Positions 9,919 to 32,253 of a DNA stretch of 34,920 nucleotides are shown one piece after another. Below the pieces are notes generated by a model, which searched no databases, was not told the origin of the DNA, and was given only the letters and a program-made list of their open reading frames with translations. Source of the DNA: Granulosicoccus sp. (GTDB taxonomy: Bacteria > Pseudomonadota > Gammaproteobacteria > Granulosicoccales > Granulosicoccaceae); the NCBI GenBank assembly GCA_023301795.1, contig JALZVU010000046.1, positions 1 through 34,920 on the forward strand. The letters run 5' to 3'. Every line of letters starts with the position of its first letter. Position 1 is the stretch's first letter. A program made the translations under genes and the position numbers.

Positions 9919-10596
9919 TTACTTTGGCTCGGACGTGGCGTGTAAGCCATACTCCGCCCCTGCACGCTGCAGCCATAACCATAGGTAATCAGTAAAGCTG
10001 CGACGCACCAACAGCTCATAGCGCCCCTGTGCCTCATCTACCTCTACTGCTCGCAGTGTCACTTGCGCTTTGGCAAACGTGGTGTTAACCACCTTACCCT
10101 GCCCCAGATGATCTGGATGCACGTCATAGCCTGTGCTTTTCATCAACACGCTTCGAGCGTGAGTCCCGGACAACTCCAGGATGGTGTACCCGCCTGAAAT
10201 ATTGACGATGGCAATATGCCCGGGGATAGCGTCACGCAGAGCCCCCTCAATAGCAAATACCTCTTCAAGTGGGCATGACAACACCCAGGCATCAGGCGAC
10301 ATCCATCGCACACAGTACGCACCGTTAGTGTCACTGTGTAATCGGGAGCTCAGGGCAATACCACAGTATGATTTCAACGCAGTGCTAAGCGCATCAGCAT
10401 TTGAGGTTGCGCGCAGCATGAGTAAGCCGGTGACAGCTTTTTCCGTGAGCAGAACACCGCTGTCTGTGGTCGACGTACCGGCCGCAGGGGGAAGCTGTGC
10501 ATGTGCAAGACCGGAACTCAGCATGCCAGCATCAGCGCCGCTTGCCGATAAATCCGCACATTGATCCATAACGGCAACCATTGAATCATTACTCAT
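9919..10596 (-). CDS. soxG: Sarcosine oxidase gamma subunit
   Basis: This 225-residue protein is the last gene of a soxBDAG set. The gamma subunit is a GcvT/TrmE-like structural subunit of the heterotetramer. The pattern TGLLMLRATSNADALSTALK, RWMSPDAWVLSCP, IVNISGGYTILELSGTHARSVLMK and LLVRRSFTDYLWLWLQRAGAEYG matches SoxG. The N-terminal 40 residues are variable. Its ATG overlaps the TGA of soxA (ATGA), so the two are translationally coupled. It has no cofactor-binding residues of its own that I can see. Confidence 0.92.
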   Translation of the reverse strand: MSNDSMVAVMDQCADLSASGADAGMLSSGLAHAQLPPAAGTSTTDSGVLLTEKAVTGLLMLRATSNADALSTALKSYCGIALSSRLHSDTNGAYCVRWMSPDAWVLSCPLEEVFAIEGALRDAIPGHIAIVNISGGYTILELSGTHARSVLMKSTGYDVHPDHLGQGKVVNTTFAKAQVTLRAVEVDEAQGRYELLVRRSFTDYLWLWLQRAGAEYGLHATSEPK

Positions 10597-13500: not shown

Positions 13501-13652
13501 TTAGCCAGCAATGCTGATGCAAGGGTGTCCCCTTCAAATCCCATCAAGGGCCTGCCATCGAACGAGAAGGTTATTGGCTTACCACGATTTATACGCCCAC
13601 CATTGTCAAGGCGGTTACGCTGCTGAATCTTTAGCTGGGATTGCGAGAGCAT
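10593..13652 (-). CDS. soxA: Sarcosine oxidase alpha subunit
   Basis: This 1019-residue subunit is near the family length of about 1000. Residues 20-105 form a 2Fe-2S-like N-terminal domain without iron ligands (GKPITFSFDGRPLMGFEGDT, FKYGRPRGIMTAG). A dinucleotide-binding domain follows with GAGPAG at 185-190 (the NAD site in this family) and the second-strand motif VLATGAHERPLVF. The C-terminal third is a GcvT-like folate-binding module (REQLAMRQGVGVLDASTLGKIDIQGKDA..., YGTESMHVLRAEKGF, DLSFEINVA). The enzyme oxidises sarcosine to glycine and, with tetrahydrofolate, captures the methyl group as 5,10-methylene-THF. It overlaps soxD by one base (TAATG) and soxG by four. Confidence 0.97.
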   Translation of the reverse strand: MLSQSQLKIQQRNRLDNGGRINRGKPITFSFDGRPLMGFEGDTLASALLANGVDVVGRSFKYGRPRGIMTAGVEEPNAVLQIGSTEATQIPNIKATEQMLYNGLVAKPVNGWPNVDFDVMGLLGRVGGDLMTPGFYYKTFMWPKSRWETYEKFIRKAAGLGSSPAVPDVDRYDHMNRHADVMVVGAGPAGLMAALRAAKSGARVLIADEGSEFGGSLLFSKETIDGKPAMQWVADVVEQLGANPQVTMLTRATVNGYHDHNFLTISERRTDHLNDRAPSGQARQRMHKVRAGSVVLATGAHERPLVFANNDLPGCMVASSISHYINRFAVVPGNKLVVVTSNDSGYQCALDWADAGREVVAIIDTRAAPDGVATELALERGIKVMKGSALIEARGKKRVQGAIVAPINTSATFVTGDTQHLTCDTIASSGGWSPAVHLSCHTGSRPVWSSEILGFVPGTTTEQRWSAGAVSGQQSLSDVLADGVKAGQDAANATHASGKADIDDLPVPIASSGNQTHCDAMPVYLLPHTKPCSRSPKQFVDMQNDVTAAGIEMTTREGFESIEHVKRYTALGFGTDQGKTGNINGMAIVANALGKTIAQTGTTVFRPNYTPVSFGVVTGAHTGPLFDPQRFTPMHEWHLDRGAEFENVGQWKRPWYYPVGDETMDQAIVREQLAMRQGVGVLDASTLGKIDIQGKDAREFLARVYTNAWAKLKPGFCRYGLMCSDDGMVMDDGVTACLAENHFHMTTTTGGAARVMSWLEIYHQTEWPELEVFFNSVTDHWATMAIAGPDARKLLEKLTDADVSADSLKFMQCTEATVAGIPARIFRISFTGDLSFEINVAAHYGLAVWKALFEAGEEFNLTPYGTESMHVLRAEKGFIIVGQDTDGSVTPLDINHGWAVVDSKPFSYLGKRGMKRNDFLRTDRKHLVGLRTVDSQAELPEGAQAVRDPAEPIPMTMVGHVTSSYYSAFLKRRIAMGLIKDGLNRMGETVFFPLRDGSVIEAEICSTVFLDPDNQRQKV

Positions 13653-13996
13653 TAGCTGCCCTCCTTATCGGCTGTTCGGTAATTGAGTACTGAACCGGTG
13701 GGCCCAACGCTCATCTGGCTTGTAGATTCAAGGACTTCACCGGTCTTATAGGTGGCGTAGATTTCATAGGTCTGGGTGTTTCTGGAAACATTGAAGTACT
13801 TACCACAGCCTGCAGCATGTACCCACAGCTCGCGATATTCACCGCGTGTGTTCTTGCGGTAGAACAGGTAGTCGCCCCATTGCTCATCAGTCATGGAATC
13901 CGGATCTAGCGGTCGAGGCAAGTGCGCCTGCCCTGCGGCATGGAACTCTTCTTCTTCGCGATGCTCTTCGCAGTAGGGGCAATGTATCAGGAACAT
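13652..13996 (-). CDS. soxD: Sarcosine oxidase delta subunit
   Basis: This 114-residue zinc subunit sits between soxB and soxA. The zinc ligands of the family are visible: C6 and C9 (HCPYCEE) and H60/C64 (LWVHAAGCGKYFNV), very close to C6, C9, H59 and C63 in the characterised subunit. The pattern EEFHAAGQAHLPRP, WGDYLFYRKNTRG and EYRELWVH is typical. It is structural and needed for tetramer assembly. The TAA stop shares a base with the soxA ATG, giving translational coupling. A 96-base gap separates it from soxB. Confidence 0.95.
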   Translation of the reverse strand: MFLIHCPYCEEHREEEEFHAAGQAHLPRPLDPDSMTDEQWGDYLFYRKNTRGEYRELWVHAAGCGKYFNVSRNTQTYEIYATYKTGEVLESTSQMSVGPTGSVLNYRTADKEGS

Positions 13997-14092
13997 GTTG
14001 GTAGACGTCGACGTTGTTCGTTCAAATAAGGGGAATCGCAGAATGCTTGATGATGTGCGGTCTAAGTGCGAGCTATTGGATAGACGCTGAAC

Positions 14093-15385
14093 TTAGTGTG
14101 CAACACCCGCAGCACCATGCTCGTCAATGAGAGAACCATCGCGGAAACGCCAATAATTAAAGGGTTTCGCGATAGCGTTTGGTTCGCCCTTGGCCAGCAG
14201 ATCGGCAAACACATGACCCGACCCTGGAGTCGCTTTAAACCCTCCAGTACCCCATCCACAATTAAAGAAGAGATTTTCCACCGGCGTCTTAGAGATGATG
14301 GGACAAGCATCCGGGGTGGTATCTACAATACCGCCCCACTGGCGATTCATGTGCACGCGCGACACTTGCGGAAACAGCTCAAGAATGGCGTGCATGGTGT
14401 GTTCAATGACCGGGAATGAACCACGCTGCCCGTAGCCTACATAGCCGTCGATACCAGCGCCGATCACCAGATCACCTTTGTCTGATTGAGACATATACCC
14501 GTGTACCGCATTGGACATTACAACGGTATCCAGAATCGGTTTGATAGGTTCAGACACATACGCTTGCAGCGGATGCGATTCGATAGGAAGCTCAAAACCT
14601 GCATAGCCTGCCAGCACGCCAGAATTACCGGCGGTAACACAGCCAATACGGTCAGCCTTTATGACGCCATGCTGAGCAGTTTGTACGCCCACCGCAGCAC
14701 CATCTTCAATAACGATATCGGTGACTTCAGTCTGCTGGATGATATCCACGCCATAGCTGTCAGCACCCCGCGCAAATCCCCATGCCACAGCATCATGCCG
14801 AGCAACACCCGCTCGCGGTTGCCATGAAGCACCCAGGACGGGATACCGTGTACTACCCGAGCAGTCCATGATGGGTACGATTTGAGCGCATTGCTGTGCG
14901 TCGAGAACTTCACCATCAATACCGTTCAACCGGTTTGCGTTTACCCGACGTTCGATGTCACGCATATCCTGAAGATTGTGGCCAAGATTCAGCACACCTC
15001 GCTGGGAGAACATGACGTTGTAGTTCAGCTCCTGAGATAAACCTTCCCATAGCTTCATGGCATGTTCATACAGATGAGCAGCTTCATCCCACAGGTAGTT
15101 GGAGCGCACAATAGTCGTATTACGACCTGTATTGCCGCCTCCAATCCAGCCCTTCTCGATGACAGCAATATTGACCTTGTCATGCATTTTGGCAAGGTAG
15201 AAAGCGGTGGCAAGACCGTGACCTCCACCGCCGACGATAACAATATCGTAGTGCTTTTTTGGCTTGGGATTGCGCCACATCCGCTGCCAATGCTCCTGGT
15301 GGCGGTAAGCTTGCTTGATAAGACCAAATCCGGAAAAACGACTCATACGGGGTATGCCGGGTGCTGAACGAGTAGGTGTAGCCAT
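14093..15385 (-). CDS. soxB: Sarcosine oxidase beta subunit
   Basis: This is the catalytic flavoprotein subunit. The FAD-binding motif is DIVIVGGGGHGLATAFYLAK near residues 47-66, followed by EKGWIGGGNTGRNTTIVRSNYL, a SoxB hallmark. The covalent FMN histidine of the family lies in VARHDAV (H197 in this numbering). The C-terminal flavin region is CGWGTGGFKATPGSG. The frame opens at 15448, but the ATG at 15385 has an AAGG about nine bases upstream; the ATG at 15346 (MSRFSGFG) aligns best with characterised SoxB proteins and is a serious alternative. It is the first gene of the operon and is divergent from a GlxA-type regulator, with a 114-base control region. Confidence 0.96.
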   Translation of the reverse strand: MATPTRSAPGIPRMSRFSGFGLIKQAYRHQEHWQRMWRNPKPKKHYDIVIVGGGGHGLATAFYLAKMHDKVNIAVIEKGWIGGGNTGRNTTIVRSNYLWDEAAHLYEHAMKLWEGLSQELNYNVMFSQRGVLNLGHNLQDMRDIERRVNANRLNGIDGEVLDAQQCAQIVPIMDCSGSTRYPVLGASWQPRAGVARHDAVAWGFARGADSYGVDIIQQTEVTDIVIEDGAAVGVQTAQHGVIKADRIGCVTAGNSGVLAGYAGFELPIESHPLQAYVSEPIKPILDTVVMSNAVHGYMSQSDKGDLVIGAGIDGYVGYGQRGSFPVIEHTMHAILELFPQVSRVHMNRQWGGIVDTTPDACPIISKTPVENLFFNCGWGTGGFKATPGSGHVFADLLAKGEPNAIAKPFNYWRFRDGSLIDEHGAAGVAH

Positions 15386-15430
15386 TGTGCAACCTTGAAG
15401 CGACGAGCTACTGACTACAAACGCACAGTT

Positions 15431-15449
15431 ATTGCCTGTAAGCGGCAAT
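15431..15449. promoter_or_regulatory. Inverted repeat in the sox/regulator control region
   Basis: ATTGCC (15431-15436) and GGCAAT (15444-15449) form a 6-bp inverted repeat with a 7-base spacer, in the 114-base gap between soxB and the divergent AraC-type gene. The size fits an operator, but AraC/GlxA proteins often bind direct repeats, so binding here is speculative. Confidence 0.35.
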
Positions 15450-15499
15450 TTTAGCTTTTCACGACAGATTTACCGCTCCGCTAAGGTTATTATTAGCAC

Positions 15500-16465
15500 A
15501 TGAGTAACCTGATACATGTAACGTTCGTCCTGCAGGATAATTTCTCCCTGCTGGCTTTCACCGCTGCTGCGGATGCCCTGACTACTGCCAATCTCGTGCA
15601 GAAATCCCGGCAATACAGTTTTCAAACAGCCAGCCTGGGTGATCAGTCGGTTGCCAGCGATTTGGGCATTCAAATTACGGCTGACTCTCCACTGCCCTCA
15701 GTGGACGTCGCGAGTACCGATTACATCATTGTCTGTGGAGGTTATCGCTGTGATTTAAGCCATCGGCCAGCATTGAGCGAGCTACTCAAAAAAGCGAGCG
15801 AGCGTGACGTCAGGCTCGGTGGATTGTGGAACGGCAGCATCGCGTTGGCACACGCTGGCCTCATGGATGGATTTAGCTGTACTCTGCACCCCGACAACCA
15901 TGCTTATGCGCAGCAACACTTCCCCACGTTGTTGGTGCGCAATGATGCAGTCGTTATTGATAGAGCCCGTTTCAGTGCTGCAGGTCCGAACAGTAGCTTC
16001 GATCTGATGTTGTTATTGATACAACGTGTGCAAGACAGCGCCACGGTAATCGCCATCAGAAACATCCTGCGCGCCGATGTCGGCCAACCCCCAGAGCCTG
16101 CGCAAGACCACAGTGGCCAACCTTTCAGAAGACCTTCCGAGAAGCTACAACGCGCTGTACAGCTAATGCGCAACAATCTGGACGAGACCCTGCACCGGGA
16201 TGATCTGGCGGCTCATCTAAATATGTCCACCCGTGCCATGGAGCGGATGTTCCAGAAGTATGTGAACACAAGTCCGGCCCGCCACTATATGGAATTGCGA
16301 TTACTCAAGGCACATGAGATGCTAAGACAAACCAATGACACCGTAACCAGTATTGCCGGGCGCTGTGGGTTTGTCAGTGGCGCACATTTTAGCCGCACAT
16401 TTAGCAATCGGTTTGGTTGTTCGCCAAAGACGTTGCGCCAGACTGCGTTGCGGTTGATTGATTGA
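15500..16465 (+). CDS. GlxA-family transcriptional activator (DJ-1/PfpI + AraC HTH)
   Basis: This 321-residue protein has two domains. Residues 1-190 are a DJ-1/PfpI-like sensor (TFVLQDNFSLLAFTAAADAL, DYIIVCGGYRCD, GGLWNGSIALAHAGLMDG); the catalytic cysteine of active class I amidotransferases appears replaced (WNGS), as usual in these regulators. Residues 213-316 are a double AraC helix-turn-helix (DDLAAHLNMSTRAMERMFQK and TSIAGRCGFVSGAHFSRTF). This architecture is that of GbdR, SouR, CdhR and ArgR, regulators of glycine betaine, sarcosine, carnitine and arginine use. Divergence from soxBDAG makes a sarcosine- or betaine-responsive activator likely. The 3' end contains a TTGA tetranucleotide run. 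Confidence 0.92.
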   Translation: MSNLIHVTFVLQDNFSLLAFTAAADALTTANLVQKSRQYSFQTASLGDQSVASDLGIQITADSPLPSVDVASTDYIIVCGGYRCDLSHRPALSELLKKASERDVRLGGLWNGSIALAHAGLMDGFSCTLHPDNHAYAQQHFPTLLVRNDAVVIDRARFSAAGPNSSFDLMLLLIQRVQDSATVIAIRNILRADVGQPPEPAQDHSGQPFRRPSEKLQRAVQLMRNNLDETLHRDDLAAHLNMSTRAMERMFQKYVNTSPARHYMELRLLKAHEMLRQTNDTVTSIAGRCGFVSGAHFSRTFSNRFGCSPKTLRQTALRLID

Positions 16466-21709: not shown

Positions 21710-24136
21710 TTACCCCCGCATACGCTCATGCTCAGAATCAAACACACACCCCGCCAACACAACCGCCGGCTGCGCCTCGCCTATCACCTCCACGCCCAAA
21801 GACATTCCTACATCGGCATAGGCTGGCTCGACAAAACCCATAGCCAGGTTTTTAGCAACGCGATGCCCCCAATCTGCCGAGGTCACGGAACCCACCACTC
21901 TACCTTCAGCGTTCACAATACTGTCACCACTGTGCGCAGGCGCATGGTCGCAATCTATGGCAAGCGTGACAAACTTGCGTCGCAAACCTTGTTCAGCATG
22001 ACGACCTGCTAGCGCCTCTTTGCCAATAAAGTGTGGCTTGTCCTCTTTGACAAAGCGATCTAGCGCTGACTCATAGGGATCAAATTCGGTAACCAGATCG
22101 GCCTTCCAGTGACGAAAGCCTTTCTCGATACGCATGGAATCCACTGCACGTGCGCCAAACAGGCGCAAGCCATGGGGCTGACCAGCCATGCGCAACGCTG
22201 ACCACGCACCCTGCAATTGTGAGGTGGGAACGTGTATCTCGTACGCCAACTCTCCCGAAAAGCTCACCGACCATATCACCGCGGGTGCCACACCCACATA
22301 AGCGCGCTTGACAGATAGCCAAGGGAAAGCGTCACGCGACCAATCTCCTCGGCACAGGCTGGATAGCACGTCGCGTGATTTTGGGCCAGCCAGCACTAGG
22401 GTGGTCCACGTCTGGGTTAAGGACCTCAGCGATACCGAACCATCTGCAGGCAGGTGTTTGTTTAACCAATCCTTATCATGCCGCTCAGATGCGGCGGCAG
22501 AACCGTACCACACGGTGTTCTCATCAAGATTGGCAAGTGTTGCCTCTCCCTTGATGTTGCCATGCTCATTCAGTAAATAGCCTAACCCTACTTTGCCAAC
22601 GCGCTTGGGCACAGCACCACAGATAATGGTGTCCAACCATTCACGCGCACCTGGGCCTGTAATCTCAAGGCGATTAAAACCATTGACTTCTGTCAGGCCT
22701 ACGCCGTTATGAACCGCCGCAACCTCTGCGGCAATCACATCAAAACAGTCGTTGAATCGAAAGCCGTGAGTCTCCTTGAACGTGGCATGCGGCTTTACAT
22801 AGTCCAGACGCTCCCACCCATCCACCAGCGCAAACTCGCCTCCTTCGGCTGCTAATAAGGGTGTTAGAGGCGTTGTCTTCATTGGACGCCCGGCCGGTCG
22901 ATGCTCGTGCGGATAATGGAAACGAAACTCGTTTTGATAGTCCTCGATAGCCTTCAAAGCGCACAGTTCAACATTGGCATGCGAGCCGAAGCGCCGCGGA
23001 TCAATACCCCATGTATCCAGTTCAGCCTCGCCATGAACAATTTGCTGCGCCAAAAGCCAACCATGACCCCCTCCCTCACCCAGCCCGGCTCTCAATCCTA
23101 TAATACAAAAAGCATTGCGCTTGCCGGGAATCGGCCCAACCAAAGGTGCTCCATCAATCGTGTAGGTAATCGGGCCATTCACAATTGAGCGAATACCGAC
23201 ATCCATCAGCGCAGGCATACGAGCAAATACACCCTCAAGCACATCAGTAACGCGATCAAGATCATCAGGACACAATGCATTGGTAAAATCCGGATCGATG
23301 CCATCCATGCCCCAGGTACGACAGTCCTGCTCATAGAATCCAATAAGCAGTCCGTCTTTTTCCTGACGCGAATAGAAATCCGATATTGGACAACGCAACA
23401 GTGGCACTCGTGCCCCATGTTGTTGCAAATGTTCGATGGGATCGGTCAGAAAGTACTGATGCTCCATGGAGGTAACGGGATGCTCGATCCCCATCATCGC
23501 ACCCACCTCATTAACTCTGTAGCCACAGGCATTAACAACGATGTCGCAATCAATATCGCCTTTGTCTGTGTGCACCGTCCACGTGTCGTCGGCGCGTTGT
23601 GTGAGGCCGGTGACCGGTGTGTGGCGATAGATCTCGGCACCGGCGTTGCGTGCGCGTCTGGCCAACGCCTGACATAACTGCGCAGGGTCTATATAGCCAT
23701 CAGCGGGATCCCAAAGACCACCCACAAGGTTATCGGTGGATATCAGCGGATGACGACGCGCGCACTCTGCAGCATCCAGCACTTCAAAATCAACACCCAT
23801 CCCTTTAGCCACACTGGCAAAATGACGGTAACCGTCCATCTGTCGCTCATCACCGGCTAGACGAATACCTCCATCGCCGTGGTGATAGCCCACGGGATAG
23901 TCTGGATCGTTGGCAAGCTCCTGATAAAGCGCAATGGAATGACTTTTGAGGCCGATCATGGTCTGGTTCTGACCAAAGTTGGTTACCTGCGCTGCAGAGT
24001 GCCAGGTGGTGCCGGATGTGAGTTCATCGCGCTCCACCAGAACGACATCGCTCCAGCCTTCCTGCGTCAGATGGTAGAGCGTTGAGCATCCAGCAATACC
24101 ACCGCCGATGACAACAACCCGAGTGCGACTTTTCAT
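21710..24136 (-). CDS. Dimethylglycine/sarcosine dehydrogenase-like flavoprotein
   Basis: This 808-residue protein has the full DMGDH/SARDH architecture: a DAO-type FAD domain (1-375) with VVVIGGGIAGCSTLYHL at 7-23, a middle FAO_M segment (about 376-435, FGSHANVELCALKAIEDYQN), a GcvT folate-binding domain (440-690) and a GcvT C-terminal barrel (about 700-800). H46 in GTTWHSAAQ corresponds to the histidine that carries covalent FAD in mammalian DMGDH (TWHAAG). Family enzymes remove N-methyl groups, passing electrons to ETF and the carbon to tetrahydrofolate. It begins 3 bases after the AGE-family stop, so it belongs to the sugar operon, which is unexpected. The substrate could be dimethylglycine, sarcosine or another N-methylated compound. 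Confidence 0.88.
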   Translation of the reverse strand: MKSRTRVVVIGGGIAGCSTLYHLTQEGWSDVVLVERDELTSGTTWHSAAQVTNFGQNQTMIGLKSHSIALYQELANDPDYPVGYHHGDGGIRLAGDERQMDGYRHFASVAKGMGVDFEVLDAAECARRHPLISTDNLVGGLWDPADGYIDPAQLCQALARRARNAGAEIYRHTPVTGLTQRADDTWTVHTDKGDIDCDIVVNACGYRVNEVGAMMGIEHPVTSMEHQYFLTDPIEHLQQHGARVPLLRCPISDFYSRQEKDGLLIGFYEQDCRTWGMDGIDPDFTNALCPDDLDRVTDVLEGVFARMPALMDVGIRSIVNGPITYTIDGAPLVGPIPGKRNAFCIIGLRAGLGEGGGHGWLLAQQIVHGEAELDTWGIDPRRFGSHANVELCALKAIEDYQNEFRFHYPHEHRPAGRPMKTTPLTPLLAAEGGEFALVDGWERLDYVKPHATFKETHGFRFNDCFDVIAAEVAAVHNGVGLTEVNGFNRLEITGPGAREWLDTIICGAVPKRVGKVGLGYLLNEHGNIKGEATLANLDENTVWYGSAAASERHDKDWLNKHLPADGSVSLRSLTQTWTTLVLAGPKSRDVLSSLCRGDWSRDAFPWLSVKRAYVGVAPAVIWSVSFSGELAYEIHVPTSQLQGAWSALRMAGQPHGLRLFGARAVDSMRIEKGFRHWKADLVTEFDPYESALDRFVKEDKPHFIGKEALAGRHAEQGLRRKFVTLAIDCDHAPAHSGDSIVNAEGRVVGSVTSADWGHRVAKNLAMGFVEPAYADVGMSLGVEVIGEAQPAVVLAGCVFDSEHERMRG

Positions 24137-24139
24137 TAT

Positions 24140-25336
24140 CTATATCTGCTCCAGTACATCCCAACAAGCACCCATGGTGTGATAGTCAGTTTTACCCGGC
24201 GGAGATTTAAGCTCATCAAAGGCACTACCGTCCCGGTTCCGAATTCTGAACCACGCGCCTTGCTGATGATCAATCAAGTATTGCCAGCTGTACGACCATA
24301 AACGATGATAGTCATCCAGATAACGTTGCTCACCGGTGTGACGGTGTAGACGCCAGGCAGCGGCGAATGCTTCAGAGTGTACCCAGAAGTACTTGTGTGT
24401 GTCTGCAAAATCACCGTTAGGGGAAAATCCGTACACCAGACCCTGATGTTCATGATCCCATCCAGAGTGCATTGCAACTTCATATAACTCGATGGCACGC
24501 GTCACCCATAACGGCTGAGGATTGTGCGTGTGCAGCATCATTAGAAGCTTGCTCCACTCCACCTGATGCCCTGGCTGAAATCCCCAAGGCTTGAACAGAT
24601 CGTCAGGCTTATCGATGTTGTACTTCATATCGCATTGCCAGCTAGTATCGTAATGCTCCCAGATAAGTCCATTGTTCTGGGCGGCAAGCTCAACAGCAAA
24701 CCGCATGGCAAGTTGACTGGCGCGATCCAGAAAGCGCTGTTGCCCGGTGGCCTCGAACGCTGCAATCAAAGCCTCACACATATGCATGTTGGCATTTTGT
24801 CCCCGGTAAGGATCAAGGGTGGCCAATGTGCCATCGCGCTCGTCCGCGTAGGCACCAGCGTTAGCTTCCCAGAAGTGTGTTTCAAGAAAATCCCAAACCT
24901 CATCAATAACACTGGCAGCTGTTTGTATTCCTGCGCGTACACAACTCGCCGCAGCCAGCATGACAAACGCATGCCCGTAAGCCATAGCTCGGTTGTCAGT
25001 AATCGTGCCTCCCTCCAAAACCCAGGCGTAATGACCTGTTTCCTGACGATGCACACGCGTTAGAAATTCCAACCCCTCAACGGCCCACTCACGGTAGTGT
25101 GCTGTGCCATATAGACGGTATGCCGTAGCGTAATTGAACACAAACCGGGTTGAACTCACCAGATGTCTGGTTGCGCTGTCATACACCGAGCCATCATCGC
25201 GAAAGCACTGATGGAAACCGCCATCGGGTGCGCGCACGTTGGGCTCATAAAAAGCCAATATGGAGCTGACATGCTGGTTCAGAAAATCGCCCGATTCAAA
25301 ATCAGGTTTGGCAGGTATTGTCAGTTCAACGCTCAT
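24140..25336 (-). CDS. AGE-family sugar epimerase/isomerase (mannose isomerase-like)
   Basis: This 398-residue protein has the (alpha/alpha)6-barrel pattern of the N-acylglucosamine 2-epimerase family. Residues matching the YihS/mannose-isomerase active site are R64 (STRFVFNYA), H185 (NANMHMCEA), H257 (QPGHQVEWSKLL) and H386 (DYHTMGACW). In that subgroup the two late histidines act as acid and base in converting mannose (or sulfoquinovose) to the ketose. No signal peptide, so it is cytoplasmic. It overlaps the GH63 stop by 11 bases, so the isomerase would act on the sugar released by that hydrolase. Mannose to fructose is the simplest reading; other hexoses are possible. Confidence 0.88.
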   Translation of the reverse strand: MSVELTIPAKPDFESGDFLNQHVSSILAFYEPNVRAPDGGFHQCFRDDGSVYDSATRHLVSSTRFVFNYATAYRLYGTAHYREWAVEGLEFLTRVHRQETGHYAWVLEGGTITDNRAMAYGHAFVMLAAASCVRAGIQTAASVIDEVWDFLETHFWEANAGAYADERDGTLATLDPYRGQNANMHMCEALIAAFEATGQQRFLDRASQLAMRFAVELAAQNNGLIWEHYDTSWQCDMKYNIDKPDDLFKPWGFQPGHQVEWSKLLMMLHTHNPQPLWVTRAIELYEVAMHSGWDHEHQGLVYGFSPNGDFADTHKYFWVHSEAFAAAWRLHRHTGEQRYLDDYHRLWSYSWQYLIDHQQGAWFRIRNRDGSAFDELKSPPGKTDYHTMGACWDVLEQI

Positions 25337-26609
25337 TTCGTAAAAATTCCATCACCATAGCGGCTGTCCATGTGAACGTGCTACCTCCACACGGCTCTGC
25401 CGAATCAGGGTCGTAATATTCTGCAAAGCCTGACTGCGCAATGAGCTCCAGACTGGACGCCTCAATACGTTGCACCAGATCGTCATGACCAGACACCCGA
25501 AAGCCATCGGCAATCAGATAGTTAACAATCAACCAGATGGGGCCACGCCAATAGCGTTTTGGATCGTAGCGCGAATCAGTCGCCTCATGACTTGGTATCA
25601 GGTAGCCCGTTGACTTACTCAGCGTATTAATTCTGCTTGCCAACGAGGCAGAACGATGAGCAGGGATAGGTGCAAGCGCTGGAATAAGCCCGCCCACTGA
25701 TGCACTATCAACAAACGCATTAACCGCTCGATCAAAGCAAACGTATTGATTGGCAGCCTCACTCCATAGACTTTCTAACGCGGACAATCCGGCAGCGGCA
25801 CGCGTGCGATTGCGCTCAGCAATCTCATCCTCACCCAGTAAATCAGCAAGTTTGGCTAGATCTGAACACGAACGAATGAGGATAGCGTTAAACCCGGGGT
25901 CAACTACCTTGAACGGCGAAGCATCATGCAACTGGCTGTTATCCCAGCCCAGACTGCGAAAAAGCTGTACAAGCGAGACGAATCGATCGTACTGAGCGCC
26001 CGTGGGTCGATGGGCAGCATCGGCATGCTGCAAGTCACGTCGCTGATAAGGTTGCAAACCGTCGATGGGCACACGATCCAGTGCTGCATCCCAGTCAATG
26101 GAATTATCACGTCCAGATTCCCACGGATGGATTATCGCAACAAGACCTGTGTTGTGCGGATCTCTATGCGCATAGAACCATTCATGCCATCGATCAATAC
26201 CAGCTATCAGCGTCGATGCTCTCTGCCGTGCCAATGACGAGTCTTTTGCCCGTTCAAACAGTTTTAACGCAGCAAAACCCGCCACGGGGGGCTGAGTAAT
26301 ACCCGTAGTAGGCACCGGCCTACCGGTAGCCCACACATCAGGGCCCGGGAAATATCCATCATCCAGTTCGTGAAACACGATATGCGGGACCATCCCATCA
26401 TCCCACTGATGCTGGAAGAGTGTTTGCATCTCCGTCCAGGCTCGCGCCTCGTTGACATGCTGTTGACCAATCGACACTAGGCATGAATCCCAATTCCATT
26501 GAAACGGGTACAGGCCACTGGTGGGCACAGTGTAATTTCCACGATCATTAAGATCGAGAATTTCTACGGCACGCTCGTACATAGTTTTCTGTGCGTTGTT
26601 AGTGTTCAT
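25326..26609 (-). CDS. GH63 glycosidase, mannosyl-/glucosylglycerate hydrolase-like
   Basis: This is a cytoplasmic, single-domain (alpha/alpha)6 glycosidase of 427 residues, using the ATG at 26609; the open frame begins with TTG at 26660, inside the ATPase gene. Features shared with bacterial GH63 MGH/GgH enzymes are LYPFQWNWDS, HPWESGRDNS and EYYDPDSAEPCGGSTFTWTA. By comparison with glucosylglycerate hydrolase, the general acid would be D168 (SGRDNS) and the base E397 (AEYYDP). These enzymes split alpha-glycosides of glycerate to a hexose and glycerate. The ATG is 14 bases past the ATPase stop and the 3' end overlaps the isomerase. The choice between mannosyl- and glucosylglycerate is inferred only from the AGE neighbour. 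Confidence 0.85.
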   Translation of the reverse strand: MNTNNAQKTMYERAVEILDLNDRGNYTVPTSGLYPFQWNWDSCLVSIGQQHVNEARAWTEMQTLFQHQWDDGMVPHIVFHELDDGYFPGPDVWATGRPVPTTGITQPPVAGFAALKLFERAKDSSLARQRASTLIAGIDRWHEWFYAHRDPHNTGLVAIIHPWESGRDNSIDWDAALDRVPIDGLQPYQRRDLQHADAAHRPTGAQYDRFVSLVQLFRSLGWDNSQLHDASPFKVVDPGFNAILIRSCSDLAKLADLLGEDEIAERNRTRAAAGLSALESLWSEAANQYVCFDRAVNAFVDSASVGGLIPALAPIPAHRSASLASRINTLSKSTGYLIPSHEATDSRYDPKRYWRGPIWLIVNYLIADGFRVSGHDDLVQRIEASSLELIAQSGFAEYYDPDSAEPCGGSTFTWTAAMVMEFLRNER

Positions 26610-26622
26610 TGAAAATCTGTGC

Positions 26623-27702
26623 TCAGACTGTGCTAAGAGCGAGTTCGGTTTCCGGATCAAACCACCGAACCCGATCAGCTTGAGGCGACCATTGTAATGT
26701 ATCCCCTGGCTGTACTTCAGCGTCGCTGTTCAGTACCACTCTGAACAACTGATCATCTACTTTGCAACTGGCGAGCAAGTGCGAACCTAATGGTTCAAGA
26801 ATTCTGACTCCGGCAGTGAATGCGCCTTCGCTGGCCGTGCTGCCATCACCGCTCTTCCCATGAACAACAATATCCTCAGGGCGAATAGCAAACTGGATGC
26901 TCTTCTGAGAAGTGTCTGGACCTTTAACGCGTACACCCGCCACCTGCCAAAACCCGTCACCACTGTTATCAGCGGTTAAAAAATTCATGGGCGGGTTGCC
27001 GATAAATGATCCGACAAAATGCGCAGCTGGATTGCGATAGACCTCAACAGCTGATGAGGCTTGAACAATCTTGCCACCATTCATGATGGCGATGCGGTCT
27101 GCCATGCTCATCGCTTCCACCTGATCATGGGTGACGTAAATCGTCGTCGTATTGCTCTCAGCCAACACAGTTTTAAGCTCTGCACGCATCTCCATTCTCA
27201 ACAGCGCATCCAGGTTAGACAAAGGCTCATCCATTAACAGCACTTGCGGCTCAGTCGCCAATGCGCGAGCCACGGCAACCCGTTGCCGTTGACCTCCGCT
27301 CAGCTGGCCGGAGTATCGTTTCAACAAACCTTCTATATGCATCAATGTGGCGGTACGCTCTACCCGCCTATCCACCTCTTTCTGTTCCATCTTTGCCATC
27401 CGCAGGCCGAAGGCGATATTTTCGTAAACGGTGAGATGAGGAAATACTGCGTAGTTCTGAAACACCATGGCAATACCGCGATCTTTGGGTGCAAGCTTAT
27501 CCACCCGCTTCTCACCAATCCACACTTCCCCAGTCGTCGCAGTCTCAAGCCCTGCCACAATACGCAGCAGAGTTGTTTTGCCACAACCTGACGCACCCAA
27601 CAGCACCATAAACTCTTGATCAGCGATGGTCATGTCAATGGAATGTAGAGCGTGAACCTTGCCGTACTGCTTGGCAACGCCCTTGATTTGTATAATCGCC
27701 AT
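26623..27702 (-). CDS. Sugar ABC transporter ATP-binding protein (UgpC/MalK type)
   Basis: This 359-residue ATPase has Walker A GASGCGKT (36-43), the Q-loop Q82, signature LSGGQ (134-138) and Walker B VLLMDEP (154-160). A C-terminal regulatory TOBE/OB extension (about 235-359, IQFAIRPEDIVVHG and GVRILEPLGSHLLASCKVDDQ) is typical of the MalK/UgpC/MsmK group. It would energise the two permeases encoded upstream. A 112-base gap separates it from the second permease, with a near-palindrome inside, so it may also have its own promoter. It is followed 13 bases later by the GH63 gene. Confidence 0.95.
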   Translation of the reverse strand: MAIIQIKGVAKQYGKVHALHSIDMTIADQEFMVLLGASGCGKTTLLRIVAGLETATTGEVWIGEKRVDKLAPKDRGIAMVFQNYAVFPHLTVYENIAFGLRMAKMEQKEVDRRVERTATLMHIEGLLKRYSGQLSGGQRQRVAVARALATEPQVLLMDEPLSNLDALLRMEMRAELKTVLAESNTTTIYVTHDQVEAMSMADRIAIMNGGKIVQASSAVEVYRNPAAHFVGSFIGNPPMNFLTADNSGDGFWQVAGVRVKGPDTSQKSIQFAIRPEDIVVHGKSGDGSTASEGAFTAGVRILEPLGSHLLASCKVDDQLFRVVLNSDAEVQPGDTLQWSPQADRVRWFDPETELALSTV

Positions 27703-27739
27703 TGTGGTATCCGAAAATTAATAGTGAATTGCAGTAGAT

Positions 27740-27753
27740 GCTAAAGCTTCAGC
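27740..27753. promoter_or_regulatory. Near-palindrome before the ATPase gene
   Basis: GCTAAAGCTTCAGC is symmetric at 12 of 14 positions and lies in the 112-base gap between the second permease and the ATPase. It could be a weak operator or part of an RNA hairpin; it does not match the AAACGTTT core found before the LacI gene. Confidence 0.25.
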
Positions 27754-27814
27754 TCGTTAGTGATCGTCCAGCCCAGCCCTTACCAGTAGCTGTGGACGGT
27801 GTCATTAAAAAACC

Positions 27815-28660
27815 TTAGCGGTTAGCAATGCCCCACATGGAAAACAGGTATTTACGCACCAGAAAGATAAACAGCAGCGCTGGTAGCACCAACACCGCAC
27901 CCCCGGCAAATTTTAAGTGCAACGGCGATTCGGCCAGGCCTTGTAACAAAAATGCCGGGAGGGTTCTGTGCTCAATGGTAAGCACCGCCGCTGCGAACAC
28001 CTCGTTCCAGGAAATAACAAAGGCAAAGATCGCTGACGCAGCAATGCCTGGCAATACCAAGGGCAGAATAACTTTAATAAATGCCTGAAAACGGTTACAC
28101 CCTAACGTCCAGGCAGCCTCTTCCAGTTCAATGGGAATGCCTGAAAACAACGAAAAAGTAATCAGCACAGCGAACGGTAACGCAAGCGTTGTGTGCACCA
28201 ATGCCAGGCCCAGAATCGAATCATCCAGACCAATGCGAATGTATAGCACTGCAAGGGGCAATGCCAATAGTGGTAGCGGAAAGGCACGCGTCATCAGCAC
28301 CAGCACACGAAACGTATCTTTACCCCTGAAGTCAAAGCGCGACAAGGCATAGCCTGCTGGCGCACCTGCGCCAATCGATAGAATCATGGTAACCGTGGCC
28401 ACTTTGATTGAATTCCAAAGCGCCTGCCCTACACCTGCATAGTTCATGAAAAACGCCAGACTCTGCGTGTCAAATTCAGGTAATGCACGCTTGGGATAGG
28501 TGGCCACAGCTTCTGGAGACGATAGGGTATTCACCAGCAGCAGATAGATTGGGACCAGCACCCAGAGACACAGCACTACTACCGCCCCGGTAAACAGGTA
28601 GCGGCTCCAGGGCCCGGCAGCCTGCACCGGTCCAGATCCAAAGCGATGTGCTTCGCTCAT
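27815..28660 (-). CDS. Sugar ABC transporter permease (MalG type)
   Basis: This 281-residue inner-membrane protein has six helices. The EAA loop, which contacts the ATPase, is ELEEAAWTLGCNRFQAFIKV, followed by ILPLVLPGI. The short cytoplasmic N-terminus and helix 1 (YLFTGAVVVLCLWVLVPIYLLLV) fit the MalG/UgpE group. The frame opens at 28693, but the ATG at 28660 has a strong AAGGAGG eleven bases upstream and forms an ATGA overlap with the preceding permease, so that start is chosen. It forms the heterodimeric channel with the neighbouring permease. Confidence 0.95.
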   Translation of the reverse strand: MSEAHRFGSGPVQAAGPWSRYLFTGAVVVLCLWVLVPIYLLLVNTLSSPEAVATYPKRALPEFDTQSLAFFMNYAGVGQALWNSIKVATVTMILSIGAGAPAGYALSRFDFRGKDTFRVLVLMTRAFPLPLLALPLAVLYIRIGLDDSILGLALVHTTLALPFAVLITFSLFSGIPIELEEAAWTLGCNRFQAFIKVILPLVLPGIAASAIFAFVISWNEVFAAAVLTIEHRTLPAFLLQGLAESPLHLKFAGGAVLVLPALLFIFLVRKYLFSMWGIANR

Positions 28661-29505
28661 ACCCGTGCCTCCTTCGGTGTTCTCAGTCCCCACATGATAA
28701 GCAGCGTGCAGCTTATCGATATCAGGAGTATGACCAATGCATAGGCCGCGGCAACGTTGGCATCCTGTAAATCAAACTGCCAGGTATATATTTCACCCAT
28801 CAACACCGGTAGATTGGTACCGCCCAATGCCACCACAACAGCGAACACCTCAAAGGCCATGATTACGCGCAGTATCATCGCTGTTTGCAAGCTGGGCTTT
28901 AGCATTGGCAAGGTGATCTTGGTAAAGCGCTTCCAGCGTCCCGCACCAAAAACCTCAGCAGCTTCATAATATTCTTTCGGGATCAATCCCATTCCAGCCA
29001 CCAGGATAACCAACACAATAGCCGTGGCGCGCCAGACTTCGGCAAGCAATATAGCCAGAAATATCATGCCCGTGTTCTGGTAGCTGAGCAGACTTACAGG
29101 CTGATCGATAAACCCCATGCCCTGCATCATGCTGTTCAGGAAACCGGTTTGTTCAAAGATAGCTAGCCAGATGATACCTGCAGCAAGATCTGATATCCCC
29201 AGTGGAATAGTCCAGATGTACAAAATCAAATCACGCCCTCGCTTCATCCCGTTGACAAGCGTGGCCATATACAACGCCAGACAAACTTGAAACGGAACAA
29301 CTGCCAGGGCCAACAAAATCGTATTGGTAAAGGCGGTGTTGAATTTCCAGTGAGATTTCATCTCGACGAAAAACTCAGACGTAAACTGCCCGGTGTCGGT
29401 CACAAAAGCCTGCCAGGCAACCAACCCGAACGGGTATAAAAAAAATACGCACAAAAACAGCGTGGATGGCAACAGTAACAAATAGGGAAGACTTCTTGGA
29501 TACAT
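28657..29505 (-). CDS. Sugar ABC transporter permease (MalF type)
   Basis: This 282-residue inner-membrane protein has six helices, starting with LPYLLLLPSTLFLCVFFLYPF. The EAA loop is EYYEAAEVFGAGRWKRFTKI-TLPMLKPSL. The open frame begins with TTG at 29538; the ATG at 29505 is preceded by AGGTG at normal spacing and is preferred. It overlaps the second permease by the ATGA junction. The pair is separated from the binding-protein gene by a region with a very stable hairpin, which would allow the binding protein to be made in excess. Confidence 0.94.
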   Translation of the reverse strand: MYPRSLPYLLLLPSTLFLCVFFLYPFGLVAWQAFVTDTGQFTSEFFVEMKSHWKFNTAFTNTILLALAVVPFQVCLALYMATLVNGMKRGRDLILYIWTIPLGISDLAAGIIWLAIFEQTGFLNSMMQGMGFIDQPVSLLSYQNTGMIFLAILLAEVWRATAIVLVILVAGMGLIPKEYYEAAEVFGAGRWKRFTKITLPMLKPSLQTAMILRVIMAFEVFAVVVALGGTNLPVLMGEIYTWQFDLQDANVAAAYALVILLISISCTLLIMWGLRTPKEARV

Positions 29506-29584
29506 AGAAAACACCTGTGTCTGACGCAATGTCGCCAAAAACCATCAATAAAGCACAGTCAGAAACTGTCGAAATAAACACTAC

Positions 29585-29620
29585 CGCGTTGGACCAACAA
29601 AAAAACGTTGGTCCAACGCG
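29585..29620 (-). terminator. Stable intercistronic stem-loop after the binding-protein gene
   Basis: CGCGTTGGACCAAC (29585-29598) and GTTGGTCCAACGCG (29607-29620) form a perfect 14-bp stem with an 8-base loop, AAAAAAAC on the plus strand. There is no T-run after the stem on the minus strand, so it is more likely an mRNA-stabilising or partial-termination element than a full terminator. The position, between solute-binding protein and permeases, is the same as in mal-type operons. Confidence 0.85.
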
Positions 29621-29691
29621 AACGCTTACCCTTGAGCCGCTAAGTTAAATGTCCTCATGAGGACGACTAATCACAAGCTCAACACACCGGC

Positions 29692-30960
29692 TTAATCGAC
29701 TGGGCAAGCACCTTCAGAGGCTACATCGGGTGCCCAGCAAGGAGCGCCTGCCTCTTCCATCAGCTTGCGAAGTGCATCGGCTTGATCGTCGAGCACTGTG
29801 CGTACATCTTGACCTGCCAGCACGATGCGCTCAAATGAATCAACGTAAACTGCATTGAACTTTCCACCAAGATCACCAAGACCAACGGGTAACAAACCAG
29901 GGTTGGCATCAGCTGATCCTGACATGGTGGCAATAGCAGCTCCAGACATCCTGACCGCAGCAGGCATATCATCAGGCAGTTCAACATCCACTACTGGAAA
30001 GAAGTTAGTGGCACGCAAGGTTTCAATTTGCGTAGCAGGCTCTAGCAAATAGGACACCAAGGCTTTTGATTCAGCCATATCCGGAGCTGTGTCAGGCACA
30101 GCAATACCCACAACTACCGGCATAAATCCACGACCCGTAGGTCCTGCAGGTGCAGGGAAAGCAACAAAGTCATCAGGACGCGTGTTGAAAGCATCGGCCA
30201 GACGCGCAGTATGATCGAACGCTACCCAGACCTCTTCGGTTAGTAGTTGCTCTTGCATGAAAGAGAAGTTTGGAGAACCCGGATTAGTGTAGCTCCATAG
30301 CTCCTTGAATTTGTTCCAGGCAAGCTCAGCTTCCGGTGAACGAAATTTGGTAACCATACTGTTGGTGTAAGACGGGTACATATAGCCTTGGAAAAAACGG
30401 TGCTTCAGCCCCTTGGGGCCTGCAGGAAAACCAAACTTGGGAGATCCGGTTTTCTCAGCCATCGTCTTTGCCCATTCAATGAGCTGATCGTAGCTAAGGG
30501 CATTGATGTCTGCGCCTTCAGGAAGATGCTCTAGCGCTTTCTTGTTAGCGGCCATGATGTAGGTGGCTTGCATCCAAGGAATGTACTTTTGCTGATCCGT
30601 ACCCAGCTTGCCTAGTTCCAGAAACGCAGAATTTACGCCATCCACACCGATATCAGACATATCGGCCAGGTTGTCCGAAAGGGAAATCAGATTACCGTGC
30701 AAAGAACCAAGCACTCCGATTTTCCCAGAACCGGCCTGCGTTTCAGCATCAACACGCGTCAGCCAAGGGCCGTTCTCGCTAGGCTGAAAGTCTACGTCTC
30801 CTGAAAATCCGGACAACACTTGATCACGCATGGCCTGTGCTTCTTCCACGGGGCGTGCCTGGGTGGACCAGAACAACACTTCTGCAGAAGCTGCACCAGC
30901 AGCCAGAAGCGTTATCCCGGTTGCCAGTGCAGCAGCCAATGTATTTTTCTTGATTATCAT
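29692..30960 (-). CDS. Sugar ABC transporter substrate-binding protein
   Basis: This 422-residue periplasmic protein has a signal peptide (MIIKKNTLAAALATG..., cleavage after ASA about residue 26). The mature chain starts EVLFWSTQARPVEEAQAM, a family 1 (MalE-like) SBP opening; DLLGSLHGNL-type and WVAFDHTARLADAF segments follow. Two cysteines near the C-terminus (APCWAP and GACPVD) may form a disulfide. A purine-rich GAGAGAGAAGAG precedes the ATG. It is the first structural gene after the LacI regulator. Ligand by context: a small hexoside such as mannosylglycerate; the sequence alone does not prove this. Confidence 0.93.
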   Translation of the reverse strand: MIIKKNTLAAALATGITLLAAGAASAEVLFWSTQARPVEEAQAMRDQVLSGFSGDVDFQPSENGPWLTRVDAETQAGSGKIGVLGSLHGNLISLSDNLADMSDIGVDGVNSAFLELGKLGTDQQKYIPWMQATYIMAANKKALEHLPEGADINALSYDQLIEWAKTMAEKTGSPKFGFPAGPKGLKHRFFQGYMYPSYTNSMVTKFRSPEAELAWNKFKELWSYTNPGSPNFSFMQEQLLTEEVWVAFDHTARLADAFNTRPDDFVAFPAPAGPTGRGFMPVVVGIAVPDTAPDMAESKALVSYLLEPATQIETLRATNFFPVVDVELPDDMPAAVRMSGAAIATMSGSADANPGLLPVGLGDLGGKFNAVYVDSFERIVLAGQDVRTVLDDQADALRKLMEEAGAPCWAPDVASEGACPVD

Positions 30961-31063
30961 CTCTTCTCTCTCTCCATTATTAATGGGCCCTGGTTGGCAA
31001 GGCCTTTCGATACAACTGGTACAGACAACTCTGTAATTAACTTGCGATCAACAAACTGTGCAA

Positions 31064-32107
31064 TCAACGTGTATTCAATGCAGGGCCATGACTTGCACGT
31101 TTTATCAACGTCGGCGATGACAACTGCTGTCGAACACCTTGCTGCGAGTCCAGGGTGTCAAGGAGCAGCCCAGCCATTTGTTGCGCTGATGATCTGATGG
31201 ATTGATCAAACGTAGTGAGTTCTGGCTTTGAAAATTGCGCTGCCGGTATGTTGTCGAAACCGGTGACGGTAAGTGAACCCGGGACATCTATGCCACGTGC
31301 TGCTGCACGCTCAATAACACTTAGCGCCAGCTCATCCGTTAATGCAACTATGGCAGTAGGCTGGTGTTCGGCGTCTAGCATGCTGTCTATTGCCTGACCC
31401 CACGTGTGGCTTTCGAAGCGAGGAACACGTTGCATTGATAAGGTGACATCACTGTCGCCTTTGTTATTGATGGCTGTCCGAAACCCGTTTTCTCTATACC
31501 GTCGAAACGTCATCGCCTCGGTAATAGACAACAGACCAAAGCGTCGGTGACCCAGCTCATACAGCCAGTCAAACAGATCATGAAATGCTTGCTGTCCATC
31601 AGTATCAATCCAGCTATAACCTGTGTGCTCTAGAGTCCTGCCATGTGCTACAAACGGAAAATCACGCTCCATCAGATAATTCACACGTTTATCATCTTCA
31701 GCGATACGGTTCAGAACCATAGCGTCCGCCCGACCCGACTCGACAATATGCTGAAGTGCGGTGAGTTCAGTTTGTGCGCTGGAAACCGTCGTCATGAACA
31801 GATTGTGGCCGCGTTCAGCGAGCCCGGCACTTAGCCCGGTAATGTACTCACCCAGAAAGGGATCAAAAATTGGCGAGTCACGTAGCGGCAGTAAAAATCC
31901 GACAAATCCGCTGCGCCCCGTGACCAGCATTTTGCCCGCAATATTGGGCACGTAATCAATGGCCTCTGCTGCTGCCACAACTCTTAGGCGCGTGGCCTCC
32001 GCCACATCCGAGTAGCCGCCCAAAGCTCTCGATACCGTGGTTATGGACAACCCCAGATCAGCGGCTAACGCCTTTAGTGAGCCCTTCTTTTTAGCCGCTA
32101 TATTCAT
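31064..32107 (-). CDS. LacI-family transcriptional regulator
   Basis: This 347-residue regulator starts with a LacI helix-turn-helix and hinge: SLKALAADLGLSITTVSRAL, then GGYSDVAEATRLRVVAAAEA, then IDYVPN. The remainder is a periplasmic-binding-protein-like sensor domain (GFLLPLRDSPIFDPFLGEYI, DAMVLNRIAEDD, FPFVAHGRTLEHTG, YDW-type dimer segments, VTGFDNIPAAQF). The frame opens with TTG at 32116; the ATG at 32107 is preferred. It lies directly upstream of the binding-protein gene in the same direction and probably represses the operon until a sugar or sugar phosphate binds. A palindrome about 75 bases upstream of its start is a likely operator. Confidence 0.95.
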   Translation of the reverse strand: MNIAAKKKGSLKALAADLGLSITTVSRALGGYSDVAEATRLRVVAAAEAIDYVPNIAGKMLVTGRSGFVGFLLPLRDSPIFDPFLGEYITGLSAGLAERGHNLFMTTVSSAQTELTALQHIVESGRADAMVLNRIAEDDKRVNYLMERDFPFVAHGRTLEHTGYSWIDTDGQQAFHDLFDWLYELGHRRFGLLSITEAMTFRRYRENGFRTAINNKGDSDVTLSMQRVPRFESHTWGQAIDSMLDAEHQPTAIVALTDELALSVIERAAARGIDVPGSLTVTGFDNIPAAQFSKPELTTFDQSIRSSAQQMAGLLLDTLDSQQGVRQQLSSPTLIKRASHGPALNTR

Positions 32108-32179
32108 GCAACTCAAAAATCATCCAAACCGGCCAAAAGCGACAAAATATTGGTGAACACGCATCATCACTGTTATCTT

Positions 32180-32193
32180 CCAAAACGTTTCGG
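32180..32193. promoter_or_regulatory. LacI-type operator candidate
   Basis: CCAAAACGTTTCGG is symmetric at 12 of 14 positions around a central CG (core AAACGTTT), the standard form of a LacI/GalR-family operator. It lies 73 bases upstream of the lacI-type start codon and so would serve autoregulation and control of the whole operon if transcription starts here. Confidence 0.65.
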
Positions 32194-32253
32194 ATAGACG
32201 ATACCACAGAATTACTAATTTACGAACAGGCAGCCAAGCAAACTGGACTTGTG

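Follow-up and report, generated by a model that had tools for sequence, protein, structure and literature searches.

Which solute is served by a run of minus-strand genes on contig JALZVU010000046.1 of a Granulosicoccus sp. (NCBI GenBank assembly GCA_023301795.1) is the question raised by this locus. The window, meaning the whole 34,920-nucleotide stretch of DNA that was analysed, lies in a 5.8 Mb draft genome of 313 contigs that is 97% complete (G000, in which the window is contig C46). It carries a LacI-family regulator gene followed by genes for an ATP-binding cassette (ABC) importer, a GH63 glycoside hydrolase and an AGE-family protein. The operon is real and a mannosylglycerate pathway is plausible: from sequence comparison, the operon probably directs import of mannosylglycerate, its hydrolysis and conversion of the released mannose to fructose. 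This reading was preferred because of the closest relative, active site and fold of the GH63 enzyme and, above all, because of the neighbours of such enzymes in other genomes, which include an unrelated mannose isomerase and a glycerate 2-kinase. The genes concerned are as follows.

31064-32116, minus strand: LacI-family regulator, likely start ATG 32107 (PF13377, PF00532, PF00356).
29692-30960, minus strand: ABC substrate-binding protein (SBP; SBP_bac_1; PF01547, PF13416).
28657-29538, minus strand: ABC permease A (PermA; PF00528, BPD_transp_1), a conserved neighbour.
27815-28693, minus strand: ABC permease B (PermB; PF00528, BPD_transp_1), likely start ATG 28660, also a conserved neighbour.
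26623-27702, minus strand: MalK/UgpC-type ATPase with a TOBE domain (TOBE_2; PF00005, PF08402).
25326-26609, minus strand: GH63, predicted mannosylglycerate/glucosylglycerate hydrolase (MGH1-like, PF22422); the open frame reaches 26660.
24140-25336, minus strand: AGE-family protein, probable D-mannose isomerase (PF07221, GlcNAc_2-epim).
21710-24136, minus strand: DAO-FAO_M-GCV_T protein, dimethylglycine dehydrogenase (DMGDH)-like (PF01266, PF16350, PF01571, PF08669).

A first-pass annotation of this DNA had named the first seven genes; their order and place were reproduced in the gene listing of the window and their families by Pfam and NCBIfam profile searches. Its statement that most junctions overlap or are separated by fewer than 15 bases overstated their tightness, since this holds at three of the six: PermA and PermB overlap by 4 bp (PermB starting at the inner ATG), the ATPase and GH63 genes are 13 bp apart (GH63 starting at ATG 26609), and AGE overlaps the GH63 stop by 11 bp, against wider gaps at LacI-SBP (~103 bp), SBP-PermA (~153 bp) and PermB-ATPase (~112 bp). 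The eighth same-strand gene, DMGDH-like and absent from that annotation, starts 3 bp past the AGE stop.

In the proposed pathway, LacI would bind a single operator upstream of its own gene and keep the operon repressed until either the solute or one of its products appears, and SBP, PermA, PermB and the ATPase would import intact mannosylglycerate (digeneaside is the algal name). Cytoplasmic GH63, with Asp185 as acid and Glu414 as base and inverting by homology, would then split mannosylglycerate into mannose and D-glycerate, and the AGE protein, presumably co-transcribed, would convert mannose to fructose. Fructose would be phosphorylated by an unlinked kinase and glycerate by an unlinked glycerate 2-kinase, for which the candidate is the one MOFRL glycerate-kinase-like match of the host genome, on contig C90.

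Sequence and modelled structure of GH63 point to a mannosylglycerate/glucosylglycerate hydrolase. The protein matched the MGH1-like profile PF22422 over its full length (348.7 bits, E 6.8e-104, cut-off 27, profile positions 1-356 of 356) and contains the motifs YPFQWNWDS, SGRDNS and EYYDP, as first annotated. Its closest solved relative by sequence and by fold is MgH of Thermus thermophilus HB8 (TTHA0978; PDB 2z07, 4wva-4wvc): 2z07 was the best PDB sequence match at 380 bits, against 203-210 bits for mycobacterial entries, and a Foldseek search with an AlphaFold model of GH63 (mean predicted local distance difference test score, pLDDT, 87) returned 4wva first (TM-score, TMq, 0.89; 44% identity) and also 5ohc (TMq 0.89). 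The latter is MhGgH of Mycolicibacterium hassiacum, which is ~30% identical to the window enzyme and shares its family, catalytic pair and glycerate-binding residues. Glucosylglycerate is the preferred substrate of MhGgH, whose role is linked to recovery from nitrogen starvation (PMC6608630). The contacts reported for MhGgH are Tyr36, Trp40, Trp42, Asp43, Tyr88, Phe89, Gln115, Trp177, Gly180, Asp182, Arg216, Tyr222, Tyr375, Trp376, Trp381, Glu419, Gln434 and Trp436 (PMC6608630; papers cited by PMC number were available in part, and statements drawn from them refer to that part). Mapped through PDB alignments, the window GH63 keeps all of them but Gln434, where it has Phe. Thermus MgH likewise has Phe there and shares the contact residues of the window protein. 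In the 444-residue frame of the window protein, the counterparts of the catalytic Asp182/Glu419 pair and the glycerate-binding residues of MhGgH are Asp185, Glu414, Arg218, Tyr51, Tyr103, Tyr224, Tyr370 and Trp371.

The AGE protein is a probable D-mannose isomerase, judged by its family and active site. It matched PF07221 (363 bits, E 2.2e-108), and its best PDB match was 5x32 (432 bits), the D-mannose isomerase of Marinomonas mediterranea (PMC7762179), with 3gt5 also close. The histidines H185, H257 and H386 of the first-pass annotation occur at those numbers and align with those of 5x32 and 3gt5; domain and histidines together place the protein in the YihS/mannose isomerase type, for which the three histidines are the published criterion (PMC7762179). 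The importer has the components of a carbohydrate ABC importer of MalK/UgpC type (SBP, two permeases, TOBE ATPase); the ATPase scored 406 bits with NF008653 (UgpC), below the cut-off of 432.

Conservation was examined in named-genome loci (L-series) that were fetched with patterns on two GH63 motifs; because the best 80 of at least 581 confirmed stretches were kept, these 80 loci are a sample of near relatives. Five of them are the same contigs as regions of relatives fetched earlier, and six annotated regions were inspected. The LacI-importer-GH63 set is a widespread unit, linked beyond chance. In 68 of the 80 loci, GH63 is preceded on its own strand by all four importer genes (at least 40% identity); the set is partial in six, five of these at contig ends, and wholly absent in six (L079, L088, L107, L128, L130 and L133, with L128 and L133 short upstream). 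Among regions from close relatives, the four precede GH63 in 16 of 17, the remaining one being a short contig, and 11 of the 17 have an orthologue of the window LacI (53-72% identity) at the head of the operon; three others have a distant LacI (reversed in two), and in the last three the contig ends first. In 23 of the 80 loci, mainly from roseobacters, the nearby LacI gene is divergent and of another kind. The window SBP is 65-86% identical to 17 operon SBPs. Carriers among the 80 include Mesorhizobium, Devosia, Chelativorans, roseobacters and a Thiotrichaceae metagenome-assembled genome (MAG), and 99 plasmid records matched. On a Deinococcus plasmid the genes for LacI, SBP, two permeases, ATPase, GH63, a DUF4147 glycerate 2-kinase and a ROK kinase stand in one row. 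Within the genus, 17 of 27 genomes have a close GH63.

Two other arrangements of GH63 genes were also seen. A second GH63 type, ~40% identical, occurs in Granulosicoccaceae and relatives (L054-L066); its SBP is different, its permeases are longer and its ATPase gene lies downstream of GH63, except in L054, where the importer is like that of the window. Paired GH63 genes on the same strand and close together were found in L073, L080, L094, L126 and L141, with a GDSL hydrolase gene between them in L094 and L126.

The sugar is named by the gene after GH63 and not by GH63 itself. A PF07385 D-lyxose/D-mannose isomerase gene lies within 60 bp after GH63 in 18 of the 80 loci and one gene further, behind a PIG-L gene, in L148; an AGE gene lies within 60 bp in one (L132). 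As AGE and PF07385 (Lyx_isomer) belong to different Pfam families, what they share is the reaction. Isomerase linkage, present on 21 of the 111 tips of the GH63 tree, required 13 changes (mean 19.6, range 16-21, in 200 label shuffles), so that it is clustered, yet was gained or lost several times. Glycerate 2-kinase genes follow GH63 in five of the 80 loci as well as in the Deinococcus plasmid operon, where the ROK kinase comes after. The conserved LacI-ABC-GH63-AGE neighbourhood that the first-pass annotation had suggested searching for was thus found as far as GH63 (importer in 68 of 80 and 16 of 17), and AGE was not a conserved part of it (the window and L132 of 80).

Other genes were found in the same slot. 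In 16 of the 80 loci (L080, L097, L104, L116, L117, L119, L127, L128, L130, L131, L133, L141, L142, L143, L145 and L148), the gene next to GH63 on its downstream side encodes a PIG-L/LmbE-like deacetylase. When the genes of these loci were clustered by similarity, this follower and the PF07385 isomerase were the only non-operon genes present in more than 10 loci. The D-lyxose/D-mannose isomerase on Marinovum algicola plasmid pMaD2 (L251 9263-9949) is annotated as an ATP synthase delta chain.

The nearest competitor, which we consider unlikely, is that the operon serves glucosylglycerate or both hexosyl-glycerates, AGE having joined by chance or handling unrelated mannose. GH63 enzymes of this group take both solutes (PMC6608630), the 60 loci lacking a linked isomerase fit glucosylglycerate, and the ROK kinase that ends the Deinococcus operon has a weak glucokinase likeness (73 bits, cut-off 260). 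Glucosylglycerate has further been reported from gammaproteobacteria (PMC11009771) and predicted for marine Synechococcus (PMC2874817). This alternative is harder to square with two unrelated kinds of mannose isomerase occupying the same slot in 19 of the 80 loci and the window, with the apparent move of AGE into the operon, and with the Phe shared with Thermus MgH at the MhGgH Gln434 position, a point weakened by 6g3n.

A number of results weigh against mannosylglycerate as the solute, or limit what supports it. The Thermus and Selaginella MgH enzymes use mannosyl- and glucosylglycerate at similar efficiency (PMC6608630), so GH63 alone cannot name the sugar. Phe at the Gln434 position is shared by one deposited mycobacterial chain, 6g3n, so this residue is not decisive. 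All 111 GH63 sequences compared have the catalytic pair, nearly all have the other contacts, and each of the 110 with a residue at the Gln434 position has Phe there; these counts are partly circular for motif residues because the 80 loci were fetched by those motif patterns. Family-specific profiles were missed throughout: GH63 scored 339.3 bits with the glucosylglycerate hydrolase equivalog NF047898 (cut-off 550), AGE 210.7 bits with NCBIfam D-mannose isomerase NF051846 (cut-off 600), the PF07385 proteins 228-239 bits (NCBIfam cut-off 350) and the glycerate 2-kinase 214 bits (NCBIfam cut-off 550). No isomerase is linked in 60 of the 80 loci (L092, with 20 bp downstream, among them), so that in many species glucosylglycerate may be the solute of the core, and L079 has an isomerase without any importer gene. 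In the 27 genus genomes, a mannose isomerase (AGE at 60% identity or more, or Lyx_isomer) was present in 13 of 17 with a close GH63 and in 8 of 10 without, that is, with no enrichment; none of the 27 has both types at these thresholds, and the two occur together in G029, from another genus. Of 14 kinase candidates, eight were tested (7 of 10 PfkB and 1 of 4 ROK matches) and all fell short of the fructokinase cut-offs, the nearest being a PfkB protein at 124 of 450 bits and a ROK protein at 173 of 443. The SBP had no match among PDB sequences at E 0.001, and identifying its ligand by fold was abandoned since its model (mean pLDDT 58) was too poor for a fold search. Taken together, the chain of intact import, GH63 cleavage and mannose conversion drawn in the first-pass annotation is favoured by the closest relative, active site, fold and neighbourhood, and is tempered by the lack of AGE conservation and by GH63 enzymes accepting both hexosyl-glycerates.

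Two points on source and priority belong on the same side. The first-pass annotation had pointed to digeneaside in red algae as a ready supply. Digeneaside is made by most Ceramiales red algae (PMC8523428). Since Granulosicoccus is found on green and brown as well as red algae (PMC10233909), the source is not specific, and feeding on red algae is one of several possibilities. Red algae as a special source were set aside, as the sample letters in MAG names are not tied to hosts in the available part of PMC10233909. The part of the red-alga paper PMC11136935 that was available mentions no digeneaside, mannosylglycerate, floridoside or glycerate, and that of PMC8706122 names mannosylglycerate just as a thermophile solute. 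As for priority, use of digeneaside by algal bacteria has already been proposed, which limits the newness of the present reading: degradation genes were characterised in Zobellia, with homologues in Maribacter (PMC8072126), and digeneaside is a possible substrate of flavobacterial loci (PMC6298971). Zobellia galactanivorans and Maribacter are Bacteroidota, and the proposed solute is the point that their digeneaside genes may share with the window operon (PMC8072126). The claim that an ABC-GH63-mannose isomerase route is undescribed stood to the extent that no paper on such an operon was found in the literature, judged by titles and abstract openings and with most subscription journals outside the scope; digeneaside use itself was proposed before.

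Escherichia coli mngAB provides uptake and breakdown of mannosylglycerate through a phosphotransferase importer and a GH38 enzyme. The window operon differs in having an ABC importer and GH63 in their place.

It is far less probable that the DMGDH-like oxidase is essential and that the solute is a methylated amine, or that two osmolytes are joined in one operon. The DMGDH-like protein, whose best PDB match is the dimethylglycine dehydrogenase 4p9s, is encoded on the operon strand directly past AGE. A sarcosine-oxidase-like cluster at 9919-16465 of the window (genes for a DAO protein and for a 1019-aa protein that combines SO_alpha_A3 with GCV_T domains, plus two small genes) adjoins an AraC-type regulator that carries a DJ-1/PfpI domain. 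Together with the DMGDH-like gene, this cluster hints at betaine-type demethylation in the vicinity. The same strand up to 3.5 kb downstream of GH63 held no DMGDH-like gene in any of the 80 named loci or of 30 regions from relatives, a few of which are short contigs. Conversely, 12 regions of relatives around DMGDH homologues (10 at 72-74% identity, two at 58-59%) held no operon gene, and in nine of the 12 another conserved gene lay near the homologue. With no linkage in any of these sets, DMGDH as a conserved operon part was ruled out. Genomes of the genus each hold 19-39 first-look DMGDH-type candidates, and the gene in the window is probably a co-transcribed passenger.

The weakest alternative, in which the substrate of GH63 is a different small alpha-glycoside (glucosylglycerol, a trehalose-like compound or a larger mannoside), draws on a weak Trehalase Pfam match (36 bits, E 6e-9) and on public annotations, which often name this GH63 a trehalase (e.g. 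trehalase family glycosidase), and is very improbable given 349 bits for MGH1-like, the kept glycerate-binding residues, the poorer fit of trehalase folds (TMq 0.60-0.65) and the lack of glucosylglycerol hydrolysis by MhGgH (PMC6608630).

Mannosylglycerate being the preferred solute, it may be asked how AGE reached the operon. In 11 of 20 regions from relatives, the neighbour of AGE is either a Gfo/Idh gene or a cluster that encodes BKACE, 3HCDH, acyl-CoA dehydrogenase and enoyl-CoA hydratase. At this usual site in the host genome (contig C44), BKACE and Gfo/Idh genes lie 370 bp apart and AGE is absent, and the window AGE nests in a clade of 11 usual-site copies (support 0.96 and 0.87). Because the usual site is empty and the window copy groups with copies from that site, AGE seems to have moved into the operon in the window lineage. 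A second AGE gene of the host genome (G000:C182:20227-21402) is 63% identical to the window AGE and has other surroundings. A decayed C-terminal GH63 remnant on contig C220 (L067 11978-12280) is 68% identical to GH63 of relative G007 and 51-56% to the window copy, and adjoins the gene that comes after GH63 in G007. In the host genome, then, the operon was apparently lost from an older site, and the intact copy stands at another, where AGE and the DMGDH-like gene are joined to it. An error in the draft assembly may instead lie behind the window arrangement.

Two further features bear on expression of the operon.

32178-32195, minus strand: predicted LacI-type operator ATCCGAAACGTTTTGGAA, a near-palindrome with CG at its centre, 71-88 bp before the LacI ATG at 32107.
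29584-29621, minus strand: strong 16-pair hairpin between the SBP and PermA genes.

A palindrome like ATCCGAAACGTTTYGGAW lies upstream of LacI in 11 of the 12 Granulosicoccus operons inspected, window included; the twelfth, L041, has merely 58 bp of contig before its LacI match. With up to three mismatches the operator pattern occurs at a single place in the window (mean 0.11 matches in shuffled windows; two or more in 2 of 100 shuffles). With at most one mismatch it matched 8 of 29 genomes scanned, at one place each, beside the LacI gene of the operon; 11 of the 29 carry a close GH63, none of the other 18 was matched, and the backward control pattern matched one of 29. Since each matching genome has one operator place, at the operon, local control of this one operon by LacI is the simplest reading of the pattern matches. 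A wider LacI regulon that includes AGE was discarded on the same scan: AGE genes elsewhere fall outside the regulon at that stringency. The SBP-PermA hairpin is possibly a partial terminator or an mRNA stabiliser. Over 82 operons, the best hairpin in this gap had a median folding free energy (dG) of -29.7, compared with -20.2 for 328 mononucleotide shuffles, which preserve base composition only; the count below -15 (79 of 82 gaps) is uninformative because 280 of the 328 shuffles also pass.

A wider account of the family can be offered tentatively, with rather less confidence than the reading of the window itself. The LacI-ABC-GH63 core of Alphaproteobacteria, Gammaproteobacteria and Deinococcus may be a modular system for osmolytes of the glycerate-glycoside kind, widespread and mostly misnamed, with the solute indicated by its last gene. 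Mannosylglycerate would be marked by a mannose isomerase from one or the other of the two unrelated families and undescribed N- or O-modified hexosyl-glycerates by the PIG-L and GDSL versions, and AGE would have moved into the operon of the window lineage.

If the mannosylglycerate pathway is as proposed, algal and marine bacteria (Granulosicoccus, roseobacters) and soil rhizobia would have a dedicated ABC route for a charged osmolyte, a carbon path concealed in annotation by trehalase names, and one solute would be tied to two non-homologous isomerases. The consumers of algal and microbial mannosylglycerate and glucosylglycerate would become testable, in carriers such as Marinovum algicola DG 898 and Ruegeria sp. 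B32.

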